Origin: Nitrospirota bacterium
Lineage (GTDB): Bacteria; Nitrospinota_A; UBA7883; JACRGQ01
DNA length: 53,457 bases
Assembly: GCA_024275955.1 (NCBI GenBank)
Contig: JAJRYD010000045.1
Span: 1 to 53,457 of the forward strand
Reading direction: 5' to 3'
Shown: one piece after another, positions 46,251-53,306 of the stretch
Layout of the letters: each line of letters begins with the position of its first letter
Numbering within the stretch: the first letter of the stretch is position 1
Notes under the pieces: model-generated
What the model was told of the DNA's origin: nothing
The model's database searches: none
What the model saw: only the letters and a program-made list of their open reading frames with translations
Position numbers and translations under genes: made by a program

Positions 46251-46553
46251 CTAATCTGACTTTTCGTTTTTCTTTATAGCTTTTTTACATGCTTTAGACT
46301 TTGCTTTCTCTCTTCCTTTTCTTAAAGTCTCTTTCGCTTCATCATACTCTCCATGAAAGAGAAACGCCGCCGCCGTATCTATGCTGTTTATTACGAAGGG
46401 ATGTTCGTTTTTACATTCGTTCTTTTTTAGCTTGCCTATAGCGTCGGCCCAGTTCATCCTTAGCTCCATTTCGCTTGCCGCCAGAACTGAAGCGGGAAAA
46501 GCAAAGCTTAAAATTAGAGCTGTGGCTATTTTTGCTTTCGCGAGGTTTTTCAT
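46251..46553 (-). CDS. Small secreted protein at the end of the nir operon
   Basis: A 100-aa protein with a signal peptide ending ASVLA (about residue 25). The mature part is helical and charged: RMNWADAIGKLKKNECKNE, then AAFLFHGEYDEAKETLRKGREKAKSKACKKA. Two cysteines (about 47 and 89) could form a disulfide. Its ATG overlaps the stop of nirF (ATGA), so it is translated with the heme d1 genes. I do not recognise the family; a periplasmic accessory role in nitrite reductase maturation is inference from position. Confidence 0.65.
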   Translation of the reverse strand: MKNLAKAKIATALILSFAFPASVLAASEMELRMNWADAIGKLKKNECKNEHPFVINSIDTAAAFLFHGEYDEAKETLRKGREKAKSKACKKAIKKNEKSD

Positions 46554-47710
46554 AGGCCGAATATGCTAGAACGGTTAGTGCAGAATATGCCGGACGGTTT
46601 TTTGATAGGTATCTCTTTTATCAGCTCAAAAGTGCTTGTGTCGTAGATCAGCAGTTTGCTGTCGCCGTAGGACGATATATATATAGTTCCGCCTTTTGGC
46701 GCGAAACCGATATGGAAAATCTTATTCCCGGGAGTGAGGGTTTTAATCACTTTTTGTGACTGTACATCAATAACCTCTACTTTGTCATGGTTGTCGCCAA
46801 GTACATAGTTCGTCCATATCTGTCTCATGTCCGGGCGGGCCATAGCAAAGATAGGGTGCCCCTTTAGCTCGATAAACTTTTTGGCCTTCCATGTTTTTTT
46901 ATCTATAACCGCGAGTCCAGAACCGCCTACCATCGGAGCGTACAGATAGTCGCCGGCCATAATCCATCCTTCGAGGTGCGGTATCTTGAGTACAGGTTTT
47001 TTGTGCGAGTCTTTCTCTGGTCTTGGAAGCGGTATTTTTGTAAAGCCTTCCGGTTTTAGAAGGTCTATCATGGTAATCCATGGCGAGTGGAAAAGCCCCA
47101 CAAGGTAATATCTGCCATCGGGAGTGAGCAGAGCGTCGTAAGGTTTTTCTCCGATATTTTTATATTTTCTAATTACAGGGAAGTCCGGCTTCCCTGCGTC
47201 TATCACCCATGTTTGGTCGGCATCCATAAGTGACACCACAAGAAGGTTGCCCGGTGCGTCTACAAGCCCTACCGTTTTGGATTTGTCCGCGGGGATTGTT
47301 TTTACTATTTTAAATGTTTTATCCGAAACGATTACTATGTTTCCCGGTTTGTAGTTGCTTATCGCTATATGTTTGCCATCTTGCGTAACGGCAAGGCCTA
47401 TGGCGCTTTCGCCTACTTTTAGTTTTGATACTATTTTTAGTTTTAAAAGATCTACCTTGCTTAAAAAGCCGTCGCGGCTGACAACATAGGCGTACCTTCC
47501 ATCGCGTGAAAAAGAGATGGAGGCGTGATGCAGTACGCCAAGGCCGCTTACCTCTCCGAGAACTTTGTGGTCTTGCGCGGAATCTATAACCATAATAGCA
47601 CCGTTTTCTCTTTCGACCACTACCATCAAGGCGCCTGTGCCGTAGTCGGCCGCTAGCGAGCTATTTGCCAGTAAGAATATGAGGCTTAGAATCGAGATTA
47701 TATATTTCAT
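46550..47710 (-). CDS. nirF: Heme d1 biosynthesis protein NirF
   Basis: Periplasmic protein of the cytochrome d1-like eight-bladed propeller family, required for heme d1 formation (reported to act on a dihydro-heme d1 precursor). A signal peptide ending SSLA precedes GALMVVVERENGAIMVID. Beta-propeller repeats such as FSRDGRYAYVVSRDGFLSKVDL, GLVDAPGNLLVVSLMDADQ and GHPIFAMARPDMRQIWTNYV with the NirF/NirS-type order continue to the C-terminus. There is no cytochrome c domain, unlike NirS and NirN. Length is 386 aa. It overlaps nirJ by 50 bases, an unusually long overlap that supports coupled translation. Confidence 0.88.
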   Translation of the reverse strand: MKYIISILSLIFLLANSSLAADYGTGALMVVVERENGAIMVIDSAQDHKVLGEVSGLGVLHHASISFSRDGRYAYVVSRDGFLSKVDLLKLKIVSKLKVGESAIGLAVTQDGKHIAISNYKPGNIVIVSDKTFKIVKTIPADKSKTVGLVDAPGNLLVVSLMDADQTWVIDAGKPDFPVIRKYKNIGEKPYDALLTPDGRYYLVGLFHSPWITMIDLLKPEGFTKIPLPRPEKDSHKKPVLKIPHLEGWIMAGDYLYAPMVGGSGLAVIDKKTWKAKKFIELKGHPIFAMARPDMRQIWTNYVLGDNHDKVEVIDVQSQKVIKTLTPGNKIFHIGFAPKGGTIYISSYGDSKLLIYDTSTFELIKEIPIKKPSGIFCTNRSSIFGL

Positions 47711-48872
47711 TTACCGTCCTGTTGTTAATTTCATCATCAGTAAGGTAGCAGGCGGGATCGCTTTCCCACAAGCTACCTGTTTTTGTATAGGCGCGCACGC
47801 GGTTTGCCCCGTTGCACACCTCCAGCCATCCGCATGTTCCACATCTTCCTTGCAGGTTTCTAGGTTTTTCTCTTAAGCGCCTGAGTGTTTCGTTGCTTTT
47901 ATCGTTCCATATTTTGGAGAACTCTTTTTCCAAAACATTGCCAAGCACTATGCCGGAAAGCAGAGGATCAGGGTGCGTGTCGCCTTTGGTATCTACGTTC
48001 ACTATTCCTCTGCCGGCGCTGTTGCCGCCCCATCGCTTAAGCACAGGGTAAAGTTTTCGCGCCTTATCTTTGTCTTCTTCCATCAGCTTGAGAAGCAGAA
48101 ACGGCGCGTCTGCTTCGTTGTTTCCGGTAACGATATCAATCTGGCGGTTGGTATCGACATACTCTTTCGCTTTTTTAAGGATAAACTCCATAGCTTCGCG
48201 GGTTTCTTTCGGCGTAAGGTCTTCAAGCTGGTTATCGCCGCCGCGCCCCGAGTAGACAAGGTGCGAAAGGTAGAGCTTTGTTATTTCGTTATCTTCGACG
48301 AACTTGAATATCTCCGGTAGGTCGGCGATGTTTATACGGGTAAGGGTGAACCTTATGCCGACGCGTAGACCAAATTTTTTGCATCGGTTAATGCCGGTAA
48401 CGGCACGGTCGAACGATCCTTTTACTCCGCGAAACTTATCATGGAGAGCTCCTATGCCGTCGAGGCTTATGCCTATGTAGTCAAAACCTGCTTTGGCCAT
48501 CTTCTTTGCGTCATGATCGGTTATTGTTGTTCCGTTGGTTGAGAGGCTAAGGAAGAAGCCGAGCCTCTTCGCTTTTTCGGCAATCTGAAAAATATCTTTA
48601 CGGTAAAGCGGTTCGCCGCCGGAAAGAATTACGGAAAAGCAGTCGGCTTTTTTAAAGTCGTCAAGTACTTTGAGGGCATCCTCTGTGCTTAATTCGTCTG
48701 TCTGGTCGCGGTTGCCAGAAAACCCGTAGGAGCCGTAGCAATGGAGGCACTCAAGGTTGCACTTTTTCGTAAGGTTCCATATAACTACCGGCCCTTTTCC
48801 CATGCTTGGCTTGCCGCTTCCATTAGGGCTTATATCGCTTAGCATTTTTAGAGAATTTGTAAGGCGGAACAT
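47661..48872 (-). CDS. nirJ: Radical SAM heme d1 biosynthesis protein NirJ
   Basis: Cytosolic radical SAM enzyme that replaces propionate side chains with oxo groups on the way to heme d1. The [4Fe-4S] cluster motif is CNLECLHC (Cys38, Cys42, Cys45), followed by VILSGGEPLYRKD, LSLSTNGTTI and ISLDGIGALHDKFRG. A C-terminal cysteine-rich segment, CGTCGWLEVCNGANRVRA and DPACYL, is typical of NirJ and suggests an auxiliary cluster. Length of 403 aa is normal. Its ATG lies directly before the stop of the NirN-like gene. Confidence 0.92.
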   Translation of the reverse strand: MFRLTNSLKMLSDISPNGSGKPSMGKGPVVIWNLTKKCNLECLHCYGSYGFSGNRDQTDELSTEDALKVLDDFKKADCFSVILSGGEPLYRKDIFQIAEKAKRLGFFLSLSTNGTTITDHDAKKMAKAGFDYIGISLDGIGALHDKFRGVKGSFDRAVTGINRCKKFGLRVGIRFTLTRINIADLPEIFKFVEDNEITKLYLSHLVYSGRGGDNQLEDLTPKETREAMEFILKKAKEYVDTNRQIDIVTGNNEADAPFLLLKLMEEDKDKARKLYPVLKRWGGNSAGRGIVNVDTKGDTHPDPLLSGIVLGNVLEKEFSKIWNDKSNETLRRLREKPRNLQGRCGTCGWLEVCNGANRVRAYTKTGSLWESDPACYLTDDEINNRTVNEIYNLDSKPHILTGK

Positions 48873-50582
48873 TTAGTTTGCCATCTCCTTGAAGCTTAGT
48901 ATGTACGCCACTATCAGGTCCATCTCGTTTTTACTTAGCTTTATGTGAGTCATAGAGCTACGTTTGTAGCCCAAAGATTTGGAACTGAATTTTGGGGCCG
49001 CTATTTGCGTGCGTATCTGGGAGCTGGTTCTCTTGTTTGCTATTTCGGCGAACGAAGGGCCGAACGCCTCGTAGATTTGATGGTGGCACCCCATACAGCT
49101 ACTGTTGAAAACATCTTCTCCGGTGATTTTTTTTGCGGACCTTTTGCCCATGCTGTAGGCGGGGTATGTTTTGTTGGTAGCGTTATACTTCCCCACCGGA
49201 TGTTTGGATGGGATTGATTTTACTTTTTTGACCGTAGCTGTATCGTAGACTACCACCTCGCCGTCTTCCGACGGGATGGTGATAAGGGCGAATTTTCCGT
49301 TTCTGGTAAACTCCACATGCATCGACTTTACGCCGGGGTGTGCCTTTATTATTTTCGTCTTTTTGAAATCACTTTTGTCTATCAGTACGATATCTTCCGT
49401 CATCGTATCTACCCAGAGGTACGGCGTGGCGAAGTGAGTTCTTACGAAAAAGCCCGCGGCCGGAAGCGGTATCTCATCCACTTTTTCAAGCTTATCGAGC
49501 GAGTAGATGCTTAGTATAGGTTTTTTGATATGGTTTACCCCTGCCATCAGTTCGCCGTTCTTATACCAGAATGCCGACGACGCTAGATGCGGTAAACCGC
49601 TTGTTGGAATTTCCTTTAGCACCATATTCTTCTTATAGTCGTATATAAACAGACTACCGCTCCCCCTCTTGGTACCTAGTATATAGTTTCCAACGGGACT
49701 TATGGAGAAATCCTCGAACGGCTCCGGCAGGAGATGCTTTTTTACGGCGAAAGGTTTTTTCGCGTCTATTATCCAAAGTTCAGCCTTTTCGCGGAACGAG
49801 CAGATGAACGCGTCCATCTGCGGCAGGGAATAAAACCCGCCGATTTTCCCCGGCGTTGCTATTTTGTGCAGAGGGTTCATGTTTTTATTGAACAGAATTA
49901 TATTTTGCGGCAACTGATTGGCAACCGCTACGATACTGCTATCGGGCGATACAGCGATAGACCTGCTGTAAATACCTGCCTTTATCTGAAATTCGGGGCT
50001 AAGGGTAGGGATGTCGAATTTTGTTATTATTCCGTCTCTGGAGGCGGAGTATATCTTTTTTAGGTCGTATGAGAATTTGGGACCGCCATGAACATTGCCG
50101 ACATAAAATGTCGCCTGTTTCGAAAGTGTTTTTCCGTCTAGTACTGCTATGCTTTTGGTGCCTCTCTCCATTATTAGTGTTACGTTTTCCAAGTCCATGG
50201 AGTGAGTTTTTGGCGGTTGTTTCTTCGGCAAAATTCTACTGGCAGAGATATCGTCAAAACTCCATTCAGGCTTCTCTACAGCTGTTTTGATATGCGCTAC
50301 TACCCGCTCTATCTCATCTTTTGAAAGCTTGGTCTTAAAAGCCGGCATGGTGGTTGATGGAAGCCCGTTGGTAATAACATCACCAAGTTTCTCCATGCTT
50401 CGCTTCGAGTAGAGCGACGGCATAAGCGGAGGCGCTGTCAGCCCAACTCTCTCATGGTGATGGCACTCCGCACAGTGCATAATGTAGAGCAATTCTCCGG
50501 TTTTTGGCGGTGCCGCCTTGCTCCAGCCGGCTGTGGCGATAAAGATAGCAACTATCGAAACTATGAAGGCATTTTTCTGCAT
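48873..50582 (-). CDS. NirN-like cytochrome with c-d1-c domain order
   Basis: Signal peptide to about residue 23, then a cytochrome c domain with CAECHH (Cys37, Cys40, His41) and likely ligand Met79. A heme d1-type beta-propeller follows (about 125-470); NVHGGPKFSYDLKKIYSASRDG corresponds to the segment with the proximal histidine, and HPVGKYNATN to the end of the d1 fold. A second cytochrome c domain ends the protein: CMGCHH (Cys496, Cys499, His500) with Met544. Typical NirN has only the N-terminal c domain, so the extra one is unusual. NirN oxidises dihydro-heme d1 and passes heme d1 to NirS; that role is inferred here from family and operon. Confidence 0.8.
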   Translation of the reverse strand: MQKNAFIVSIVAIFIATAGWSKAAPPKTGELLYIMHCAECHHHERVGLTAPPLMPSLYSKRSMEKLGDVITNGLPSTTMPAFKTKLSKDEIERVVAHIKTAVEKPEWSFDDISASRILPKKQPPKTHSMDLENVTLIMERGTKSIAVLDGKTLSKQATFYVGNVHGGPKFSYDLKKIYSASRDGIITKFDIPTLSPEFQIKAGIYSRSIAVSPDSSIVAVANQLPQNIILFNKNMNPLHKIATPGKIGGFYSLPQMDAFICSFREKAELWIIDAKKPFAVKKHLLPEPFEDFSISPVGNYILGTKRGSGSLFIYDYKKNMVLKEIPTSGLPHLASSAFWYKNGELMAGVNHIKKPILSIYSLDKLEKVDEIPLPAAGFFVRTHFATPYLWVDTMTEDIVLIDKSDFKKTKIIKAHPGVKSMHVEFTRNGKFALITIPSEDGEVVVYDTATVKKVKSIPSKHPVGKYNATNKTYPAYSMGKRSAKKITGEDVFNSSCMGCHHQIYEAFGPSFAEIANKRTSSQIRTQIAAPKFSSKSLGYKRSSMTHIKLSKNEMDLIVAYILSFKEMAN

Positions 50583-50657: not shown

Positions 50658-52277
50658 CTAGTAAAGGTCGTGCATAGTGTTGTAGACGTTGAACTTGCCT
50701 GTTGGAGTTCTAAGGCCCGTGATGCGTTTCTTCACCTTAAGGGTCTTATCGTCGTAGACAACTACTTCACCGTCGTTATCCCACATGCTTATCCAAACCT
50801 CGTCACCAGCTTTATTGTACTCCTGATGAACCGCTTTACCCTTTTTGCCTACTTCGAAGCAGACTGGTACCGCGGTTATGTTGGCTTTCTTGAATACACA
50901 CTGTGAGCGCTGGGTCTTCTTGTCGGTGTTCAAAGGCATATCAACCCATACGTTGGCACTCTTAGGGTGCGTCTTAAGGAAGAGCTGTCCGCCACCTTCC
51001 AGACCCAGACCCTTAAACTTGGTCATGTCGATGCTATGAACAACTTTCCACGCGTGCTGAGGGTGTCCTTTAGGATCACTTCCCCATACGGAGAGTCTCA
51101 TCTCGCCTATATGCACGGTTGCCGAAACAGGGCCGTATTTAGGGTCAATCCAGTTCGCGCCACGCCCAGGATGAGGTATTTTGCCGACTTTAAACTGGGC
51201 GGCTTTCTTCCTCGTCTTGGTGTCGATGATGACCATCGTGTTTCTTTTGTTCGCCGCAGGCATAAAGTAGCGGTGAGTAGAATCCCAGCCGCCATCGTGG
51301 AGGAATCTTTCAGCCGCAATCATGTTGACCTGAAGATTTTCAATATCTGCGTAGTTAAGCAACCATATGAAGCCTGTCTCCTTGATGTTCATAACCCACT
51401 CAGGTGTGTAGTGGGACGCAACGATAGCCGCAACGCGTGGCTCAGGATGGTACTCGTTTTTGTCGTAAGTGTAGCCGCGTGTCGAGATGATTTTCTTTGG
51501 CTCCAGTGTTATGCCGTCAATGATAACGGCGTGAGGAGGCCAGTAGCAACCAACAACAGCAAGCTTATCTTCGTAACCTTTGTACTTGCTTCCGTCAATG
51601 GAGCGGGCCTCGGTGCATGTCTGAACCATAGCAACTTTGGTAGGTACCTTAGTCCAGAGGTCATACAGTGCCGCCCTGCCGTCGCGTCCTATTGAATAGA
51701 AGTAACGGCCTGTAGCCGAAGTACGGAGAATATGCACGGCAAAACCTGAATCGAGAGTTGCTATTACTTCCTTACTGTCGCCGTCGATGACAGCAACTTT
51801 GCCGGCATCGCGTAAAATTACGCCGAAGAAGTTCTTCCAGTCGCGGTTGTGCTGAGGTTTTTTAGGCCTTTTGGCAACAGGAACAAGAACTCTCCATGTT
51901 TTCTTCATATCCGCAAGCGACATCTCTGGTGGTGCAACTGGTGGGTGCTGGATGAATCTTGCAAGCAGGTTGGCTTCTTTCTGGCTCATTATGCCGTCGT
52001 CAACCCATCCTGGCATTCCGCCGTCAGTTCCCTCTGCGATGAATGCTTCAAGGTCGTCGGTGGTCAGCTCTTTTTTAGATAACTTCTTTGGAGTCAGCGC
52101 AGGGCCTGTCGCGCCCTTTCTTAGTGTTACGTGACAGCAGGTACACCTGTCAAAGTAGAGTTCACTTGCTTTTTTTACCTCTTTAGCCGATATCGGCGGT
52201 GGCGCCGCAAAGCTGGCAAGCGGTGCAGAAAGCATAAACGCTATTGAAATGATGGCTGTTGCTAGGTATCTCTTCAT
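50658..52277 (-). CDS. nirS: Cytochrome cd1 nitrite reductase NirS
   Basis: Periplasmic enzyme reducing nitrite to nitric oxide. Signal peptide to about residue 24. The cytochrome c domain has CTCCH (Cys45, Cys48, His49) and GGMPGW with the likely ligand Met88. The d1 propeller shows GFAVHILRTSATGRY (His182, proximal d1 ligand) and the two active-site histidines in VASHYTPEW (His289) and WDSTHRYFM (His335). The strictly conserved NirS blocks HDGGWDS, HPGRGANW and PTGKFNVYNT are present. Length of 539 aa is slightly short. SD AGGGGGAG precedes the ATG. It heads the operon that makes its own cofactor. Confidence 0.96.
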   Translation of the reverse strand: MKRYLATAIISIAFMLSAPLASFAAPPPISAKEVKKASELYFDRCTCCHVTLRKGATGPALTPKKLSKKELTTDDLEAFIAEGTDGGMPGWVDDGIMSQKEANLLARFIQHPPVAPPEMSLADMKKTWRVLVPVAKRPKKPQHNRDWKNFFGVILRDAGKVAVIDGDSKEVIATLDSGFAVHILRTSATGRYFYSIGRDGRAALYDLWTKVPTKVAMVQTCTEARSIDGSKYKGYEDKLAVVGCYWPPHAVIIDGITLEPKKIISTRGYTYDKNEYHPEPRVAAIVASHYTPEWVMNIKETGFIWLLNYADIENLQVNMIAAERFLHDGGWDSTHRYFMPAANKRNTMVIIDTKTRKKAAQFKVGKIPHPGRGANWIDPKYGPVSATVHIGEMRLSVWGSDPKGHPQHAWKVVHSIDMTKFKGLGLEGGGQLFLKTHPKSANVWVDMPLNTDKKTQRSQCVFKKANITAVPVCFEVGKKGKAVHQEYNKAGDEVWISMWDNDGEVVVYDDKTLKVKKRITGLRTPTGKFNVYNTMHDLY

Positions 52278-52664
52278 TTTTCTCCCCCTAAATACTTTTA
52301 GAACCTGAATTGAATACTCCGTGCATTTAACTACATTTTCCCAAAAAAGGAAATCTTTTTTTTTTGATGGTTTCTTACAACTCTATTTTCATAAAAACAG
52401 CTCCAGCATCTTGCACACAAGAGGAACTCCATACTTCATAAACTCCATAACTCCATAACTCCATAAAAATTGTAATAGTCTTTATTATTCTGGTTGTTAT
52501 AGGCTTTTCTTTTGTTTTTCATCATTTTATCTGCCGCGCCACCTTGCTGTTTTTATATGCCGCTTAAAATCGGCTCTTTTCTTTTTATCTAGTTTTGTGT
52601 ATAAAATTAGAGTCAATCTGTTAGGGGCTCTATTTTATTAAGGTTTTCAAGGGGAGTGAGAGAT
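52278..52664. other. Divergent regulatory region between nirS and the next unit
   Basis: No gene. It contains an inverted repeat (TTTCC-N7-GGAAA near 52335-52351 on either strand), long A and T runs at 52350-52362, and five ACTCCATA-type octamers (separate entry). I find no convincing FNR/NNR box (TTGAT-N4-ATCAA) by eye. Promoters for nirS and for the plus-strand gene must both lie here. Confidence 0.5.
52426..52465. repeat. Array of ACTCCATA octamers upstream of nirS
   Basis: Exact copies at 52426-52433, 52442-52449, 52450-52457 and 52458-52465, and one single-mismatch copy (ACTTCATA) at 52433-52440. On the nirS strand the unit reads TATGGAGT. It lies about 150-190 bases upstream of the nirS ATG. 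Confidence 0.75.
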
Positions 52665-53306
52665 ATGGAATCTAACGAATCTGGTGAGAAAAGATCATAT
52701 TGGATGGTCTTTTACGATGACATATATCTGCTGTTTTTTCTTAGTGCGGCGATAACGTTCATCTTATACACGGTTTGGGGTCTTATAGAGCTTGGAACGG
52801 TTCCTGTCTCGCCGTATTTAACGGCTGGTAGTGCCGTTTCTTCTACTTCCGATAGCAATTCGTCCGCGTCTGTAGACACCGCGGCGGTTGAGTACTGGAA
52901 AAAATGGGAAAAAGGCACGGTAGGGCAGTTCCCTCCTTGCGGAACAAATGTTATAGCTCTTGGTCTTGATGAGATTTTGCAAGGTACCGTCGATACTTAT
53001 TGCGGTCTTGATCCAGGGCATTACGAGACATGGATTAATCCAGCGAAGATGGACACATACAGAGCAAGGGGAACAACCTATGCCGATGGTCCTACCGGAG
53101 TACTGGTTCTTCCAAAGCTCGGGGTTGCGTTTACAACGGCCCATAAGAGCGGCAACCCGATATACGACGCTATTACAGTGGCAGACGGCAAGTCTATTGC
53201 TTCCAGCGAGTCGGGACATCCGCTTAACCCTGAGACATGCAGTAATTGCCATGCCACCTATGACGGCGTATGCGTAGGCTTTGTTTGTGGCAACAGGAAC
53301 GACTGA
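52665..53306 (+). CDS. Membrane-anchored protein with one C-terminal CxxCH heme site
   Basis: I do not recognise the family. One transmembrane helix near the N-terminus (DIYLLFFLSAAITFILYTVWGLI), a serine-rich linker, then a periplasmic domain with PPCGTNVIALGLDEI, CGLDPGHYETW and, near the end, PETCSNCHATYDGVCVGFVC, a CxxCH covalent-heme motif among further cysteines. I start at ATG 52665 because GGGGAG lies 8 bases upstream; the GTG at 52656 is inside that SD. Length is 213 aa. It is divergent from nirS and heads a unit leaving the window, so a role in electron transfer to nitrite or NO reduction is possible. Confidence 0.65.
   Translation: MESNESGEKRSYWMVFYDDIYLLFFLSAAITFILYTVWGLIELGTVPVSPYLTAGSAVSSTSDSNSSASVDTAAVEYWKKWEKGTVGQFPPCGTNVIALGLDEILQGTVDTYCGLDPGHYETWINPAKMDTYRARGTTYADGPTGVLVLPKLGVAFTTAHKSGNPIYDAITVADGKSIASSESGHPLNPETCSNCHATYDGVCVGFVCGNRND

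Follow-up and report, generated by a model that had tools for sequence, protein, structure and literature searches.

The nir operon of a Nitrospinota genome encodes a protein that is well supported, by sequence and predicted structure, as a true NirN with a different architecture: a cytochrome c domain stands on either side of the d1-type propeller (c-d1-c). No catalytic feature of NirN fails in it, and its enzyme activity is predicted. The additional C-terminal domain, hereafter the tail, is by its sequence features a class I c551/c552-like cytochrome and not NirC. We consider it fairly likely that NirN has been fused here to the lineage's own heme-d1 redox cytochrome, which would replace NirC and carry electrons from the oxidation of dihydro-heme d1.

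A NirN-type protein in the nir operon

The window (the whole 53,457-nucleotide stretch of DNA that was analysed) contains a nirS-nirN-nirJ-nirF operon of which the c-d1-c gene is a member. The 569-aa protein is read from a single uninterrupted frame. The genes and domains are listed by position in the window.

46550..47710, minus strand: nirF, a d1-propeller protein of 386 aa without a cytochrome domain (PF02239, 265 bits; NirF clade)
47661..48872, minus strand: nirJ, radical SAM heme d1 biosynthesis protein, abutting the c-d1-c gene (best NCBIfam match TIGR04051 NirJ, 458.9 bits, below the curated cut-off of 515)
48873..50582, minus strand: nirN-like gene for the c-d1-c protein of 569 aa (open frame; best PDB match NirN; NirN clade)
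48876..49145, minus strand: C-terminal cytochrome c domain, residues 480-569, with C496MGCH500 and M544, the extra module (PF00034 at 487-562; c551/c552-like; AlphaFold)
49173..50198, minus strand: d1-type beta-propeller, residues 129-470, with H165, H332, H422, and Y466 (PF02239; residue mapping; Foldseek NirN 6rtd)
50280..50513, minus strand: N-terminal cytochrome c domain, residues 24-101, with C37xxCH41 and M79 (Pfam PF13442 at 24-97; NirN-cytochrome profile 99.9%)
50514..50582, minus strand: probable signal peptide, residues 1-23, for export to the periplasm (MQKNAFIVSIVAIFIATAGWSKA, read by eye, without a prediction program)
50658..52277, minus strand: nirS, cytochrome cd1 nitrite reductase of 539 aa (PF02239, 403 bits; NirS clade)

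The adjoining nirS, nirJ, and nirF genes are as expected for a genome that makes heme d1. The source genome (2.45 Mb in 56 contigs, 98% complete) holds three d1-domain genes, all in the nir operon, and the c-d1-c gene is its sole NirN candidate. An earlier sequence-only reading of this DNA had described a NirN-like protein of c-d1-c layout, and this description was borne out by the trees, by the PDB match, and by Pfam, in which three matches exceed the curated cut-offs: Cytochrome_CBB3 at residues 24-97, Cytochrom_D1 at 129-470 (176.9 bits), and Cytochrom_C at 487-562. The two CxxCH motifs that it had located at residues 37-41 and 496-500 were confirmed as well. Both motifs and both downstream Met ligands (M79 and M544) are invariant in an alignment of the window protein with seven complete relatives (43-55% identity), and the two heme motifs are therefore not chance occurrences.

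Several lines of evidence identify the d1 part as NirN. The closest solved structure in a PDB sequence search is Pseudomonas aeruginosa NirN 6rtd, with 271 bits over residues 20-472, and a Foldseek search with the AlphaFold model (pLDDT 75) returned NirN chains at ranks 1-3, 6rtd with an E-value of 2.3e-43. In d1-domain trees, the window protein lies inside the NirN clade, apart from NirS and NirF (support 98/96 and 100/99), and this placement recurs in three trees. Its N-terminal cytochrome domain, in which C37xxCH41 and M79 are the class I His/Met ligands, gives a 99.9% profile match to the NirN cytochrome domain. The active-site residues of NirN, reportedly described by Kluenemann in 2019, are said to be His147, His323, His417, and Tyr461, which by alignment we take to correspond to H165, H332, H422, and Y466 of the window protein. 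On the 6rtd NirN chain, the spacing of the four residues is 176/94/44, an exact fit to these numbers. All four catalytic residues are kept in the window protein by alignment to NirN, and they are invariant in the Nitrospinota proteins. At the position of Y466, all NirN proteins checked have Tyr, and all NirS and NirF proteins checked with a residue there have Phe.

By the same evidence, the window protein is not a NirS: it falls outside the NirS clade and has Tyr, not Phe, and the true NirS is the neighbouring gene. The sequence-only reading was thus right to see a considerable divergence of the d1 domain from NirS, but this is because the domain is that of NirN and not a new type. Past the propeller, where a NirN chain made of c and d1 domains only comes to its end, the window protein continues for about 97 residues that carry the second cytochrome c. 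Compared with P. aeruginosa NirN (6rtd/6rte), it has the same N-terminal cytochrome c and d1 propeller, the same four active-site residues, and an operon that likewise includes nirS, nirJ, and nirF, but it differs in the extra C-terminal cytochrome c, in an identity of about 32%, and in an operon without nirC.

Two further genes of the window flank the operon. Directly after nirF, positions 46251-46553 (minus strand) encode a probably exported 100-aa protein of unknown family, without a Pfam match. Divergently upstream of nirS, at the contig end, positions 52656-53306 (plus strand) encode a protein that is anchored in the membrane and has one CxxCH close to its end; an apparent homologue (L034:3882-4508, minus strand) is followed by COX2-like, COX1-like, and SCO1-like genes. 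The gene at 52656-53306 possibly belongs to a cluster for a heme-copper oxidase or an NO reductase, truncated at the contig end.

The C-terminal cytochrome c domain

The C-terminal CxxCH lies within a cytochrome fold. AlphaFold models residues 471-569 as five helices (pLDDT 87), and all top 50 Foldseek matches of this part are class I cytochromes c or cytochrome c domains, with probabilities of 0.84-1.00 and E-values only of 0.0065 or above. They include c551 of P. aeruginosa and P. stutzeri (351c, 1cch), with high probability but weak E-values. A profile search of the PDB with the tail matched c555, c552, c551, NorC, and the NirK-cytochrome fusion 2zoo (E 0.0097), and NirC was absent from the matches. 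No family in a search of curated families fits the tail.

Among the cytochromes of nir operons, the tail profile matches NirM at 97.1% (E 5.7e-11, with a NirM set of two sequences only). The matches to the NirN and NirS cytochrome domains are weaker than that to NirM, and the match to NirC is only 1.8%. The distance from the first Cys to the Met ligand tells the same two families apart, being 48 in the tail, 47-49 in NirM, and 42 in NirC. NirC is also marked by an Asp before CxxCH and a GGLG motif after it (PMC7137109); the tail, which reads SSCMGCHHQIYEAFGPSF with the Met at 48, has neither. A strict NirN-NirC fusion is thus excluded by the profile match and by the Met spacing. What the tail has in common with NirC (6tp9; PMC13168839) is that both are small c-type cytochromes of the heme d1 pathway, and that the stand-alone tail described below fills a similar operon slot beside nirF. 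The tail resembles NirM and other c551/c552 cytochromes in sequence profile, heme-to-Met spacing, and fold, but it forms a separate group of its own and occurs in a biosynthetic enzyme or beside nirF or nirJ. In the tail tree, the two NirM sequences are set apart from the tail by very long branches.

A duplication of the protein's own N-terminal cytochrome domain, to which the tail gives a profile match of 96.7%, was also considered as the origin of the tail and was set aside, since the existence of a stand-alone tail gene makes fusion the simpler story. The two domains may share a remote common origin, the match between them standing at 96.7% against 97.1% for NirM.

Fused and separate forms across lineages

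In the phylum of the window, NirN was found in 12 of 24 genomes, and all 12 have the tail: nine encode a complete c-d1-c protein, one a 3' fragment, and two a gene broken at contig ends, whose tail half was recovered separately. The layout had been presented as an oddity in the sequence-only reading. This view did not hold, as c-d1-c is the only NirN layout seen in Nitrospinota (12/12 nirN genomes) and recurs in other lineages. Named c-d1-c records are mostly Nitrospinota (one scan of genome contigs, 13 loci), and a sample of 385 genomes showed the layout in three further lineages (L113/L114, L115, L119) and a stand-alone 105-aa tail in a fourth (L126). In at least five lineages, NirN rather than NirF is the partner to which the tail is fused. 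Of the 385 sampled genomes, 17 gave strong tail matches (E below 1e-15), all of them among the 23 with d1 proteins (Fisher p 6e-25, a co-occurrence figure favoured by a profile built partly from the counted genomes). At L152 (G403:C1, about 1703000-1705660), a transposase-like sequence apparently breaks up a nirN-tail gene.

When the 12 Nitrospinota genomes were searched with a NirC profile, no small NirC encoded on its own turned up; the best matches there are N-terminal domains of NirN or NirS, and the rest lie in frames of at least 211 aa. Seventeen other genomes likewise gave no stand-alone NirC at or near the operon, the matches being domains of large d1 proteins, except in G410, where one match is a 191-aa frame on another contig. 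The genomes searched are mostly draft MAGs, in which absence of NirC is not proof. The tail, for its part, was not found in proteobacterial nir plasmids that carry nirC. The NirN proteins of the deltaproteobacterial L042/L043 and of L174 lack the tail, and next to their genes we recognised no small nir cytochrome gene of either NirC-like or tail-like type. NirN can thus work without the tail, as these tail-less relatives indicate. In the nir operon of genome G182, a 123-aa cytochrome (L175:5862-6230) has a probable nirD/L-type gene on one side and nirE on the other; its match to the tail profile is weak (E 2e-9), and it is possibly a further NirC substitute.

The order to which the genome of L126 belongs (the G344 order) has both fused and separate forms. 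It is probably Campylobacterota, judging by the NapA of a single member, with 66% identity to Sulfuricurvum and no more than about 54% to any other listed plasmid record. The tail is present in 60 of 150 genomes of this order, in frames of 556-691 aa in 14 of them and of about 105-170 aa in the other 46. In arrangement A, the genes run nirS, fused nirN-tail, nirJ, nirF, nirE (L172; also L173 from nirN on, where nirE was not seen). Arrangement B has nirS, nirN, a separate tail, nirJ, nirF, and nirE (L160-L162), with a gap of a few tens of bases between nirN and the tail in L160 and L161 and an extra ORF intervening in L162. Since A and B share their gene order, the fused gene can be read as B with the boundary removed, or B as A split. 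In arrangement C, a lone tail stands beside nirF or nirJ (L163-L168), usually downstream of a five-heme cytochrome and a divergent d1 protein, and nirN was not detected genome-wide in these genomes.

The divergent protein of these genomes with a lone tail and without nirN is a c-d1 protein of about 570 aa (L165:2819-4522, L166:10275-11984, L167:9577-11286, L168:10204-11910). It forms its own clade next to NirS (92/91), and its N-terminal cytochrome domain is NirC-like in most cases (E about 1e-19 at best). The five-heme cytochrome, of about 365 aa (L165:4583-5677 and its equivalents in L166, L167, and L168), lies directly between the divergent d1 protein and the lone tail, and no curated NCBIfam family reaches its cut-off on it.

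The Nitrospinota fusions make up a single clade of the NirN tree (100/99), adjacent to the tail-less NirN of the deltaproteobacteria and L174; a second clade holds the other fusions and the split forms. There may have been an early fusion followed by losses and a split, or more than one fusion event; the NirN tree allows either. The tail tree (82 columns, modest support), in which fused tails of the G344 order group with stand-alone tails of the same order, favours repeated changes between the fused and separate states within that order.

A proposed role in heme d1 maturation

NirN makes the acrylate double bond after the NirF step. As for the step before it, NirF and NirC together form dihydro-heme d1 in vitro, and NirC has been proposed as one possible electron acceptor (PMC13168839). 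A nirC mutant of Paracoccus denitrificans is reported to be devoid of heme d1 (PMC7137109). In the fused protein, dihydro-heme d1 delivered by NirF would bind in the propeller, with H165 as the proximal and H332 as the distal ligand, and H422 and Y466 would take part in the dehydrogenation of the propionate side chain to acrylate. One electron would pass to the N-terminal heme c, and the C-terminal heme c would accept it from there and hand it to an outside acceptor. Fused NirN would thereby be independent of free NirC. An electron-transfer role for the second heme c, already suggested in the sequence-only reading, is the natural reading of an extra heme c.

The tail cytochrome would probably also serve the step of NirF, because it sits beside nirF in operons without nirN. 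Its positions, beside nirF or nirJ, beside nirN, or fused to nirN, suggest a late-step redox cytochrome in the place of NirC. We infer this replacement from the gene neighbourhood and the absence of NirC, the tail itself not being NirC by sequence, and we likewise infer the direction and partners of electron flow and the potentials. A broader proposal, which we put forward tentatively and without leaning towards it, is that the tail represents an undescribed family that replaces NirC in Nitrospinota, Campylobacterota, and other non-proteobacterial denitrifiers. The fused form might then serve both keto formation by NirF and dehydrogenation by NirN, as a hub for the finishing of heme d1.

It is also conceivable that the tail serves NirN only, as a built-in exit wire for the electron of the N-terminal heme c, and is not involved in the step of NirF. 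The recurrent choice of NirN over NirF as the fusion partner fits such a wire, and NirN has been described, in the title of Adamczack 2014 (via PMC13168839), as an electron-bifurcating dehydrogenase, for which a heme c electron sink would be needed. However, in several genomes in which nirN was not detected, a separate tail gene stands beside nirF or nirJ, and there a further role is required; we regard a wire for NirN only as unlikely.

We find it rather improbable that the tail is a NirM-type donor to NirS, acting during or after d1 insertion and tethered because NirN docks to NirS. The nir-operon profile closest to the tail is that of NirM, the c551 that donates electrons to NirS; an in vivo interaction of NirN with NirS is on record for Pseudomonas (PMC3694632); and the NirS of Chloroflexi itself bears fused c551-like domains (PMC8756737). 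However, respiration requires its donor in large amounts, whereas the role of NirN lies in maturation, and the tail is separated from NirM by very long branches in a comparison that rests on two NirM sequences. Finally, the idea of the sequence-only reading that this may be an enzyme other than NirN, which would then act on a different substrate, would agree with the mere 32-33% identity to Pseudomonas NirN over the shared part, but we dismiss it as most improbable, given the NirN clade in three trees, the four invariant NirN active-site residues, and the standing of this gene, within a nir operon, as the sole NirN candidate of its genome.

For the preferred fusion of NirN to a redox cytochrome of the lineage's own, comparable fusions on other enzymes provide precedents. 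The C1-C2-NirS proteins of Chloroflexi (PMC8756737) also join a c551/552-like cytochrome to a cd1 protein, but at the N-terminus of NirS, versus the C-terminus of NirN here. NirK with a C-terminal cytochrome c (2zoo) likewise has that domain serving an enzyme of the same pathway, although it is a copper nitrite reductase with an unrelated catalytic domain. Genome G108 encodes a NirS-like protein of 721 aa (L123:811-2973) that carries two cytochrome motifs at its N-terminal end (c-c-d1) and thus resembles the Chloroflexi C1-C2-NirS.

Nearly every NirS producer has been said to possess NirC (PMC7137109), which was tied to NirF only in 2026 (PMC13168839). A search of the open-licence PMC literature found no paper that describes a c-d1-c NirN or the stand-alone tail. 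In the nir operons of several lineages, NirC was not found and a different cytochrome is in place, sometimes joined to NirN; the link of this cytochrome to NirN comes from the gene order that its fused and split forms have in common. The tail can serve as a marker separating these heme d1 operons from the proteobacterial type, and the fused form, as a compact single-chain system, bears on which electron acceptor is used in the last two periplasmic steps of heme d1 synthesis.
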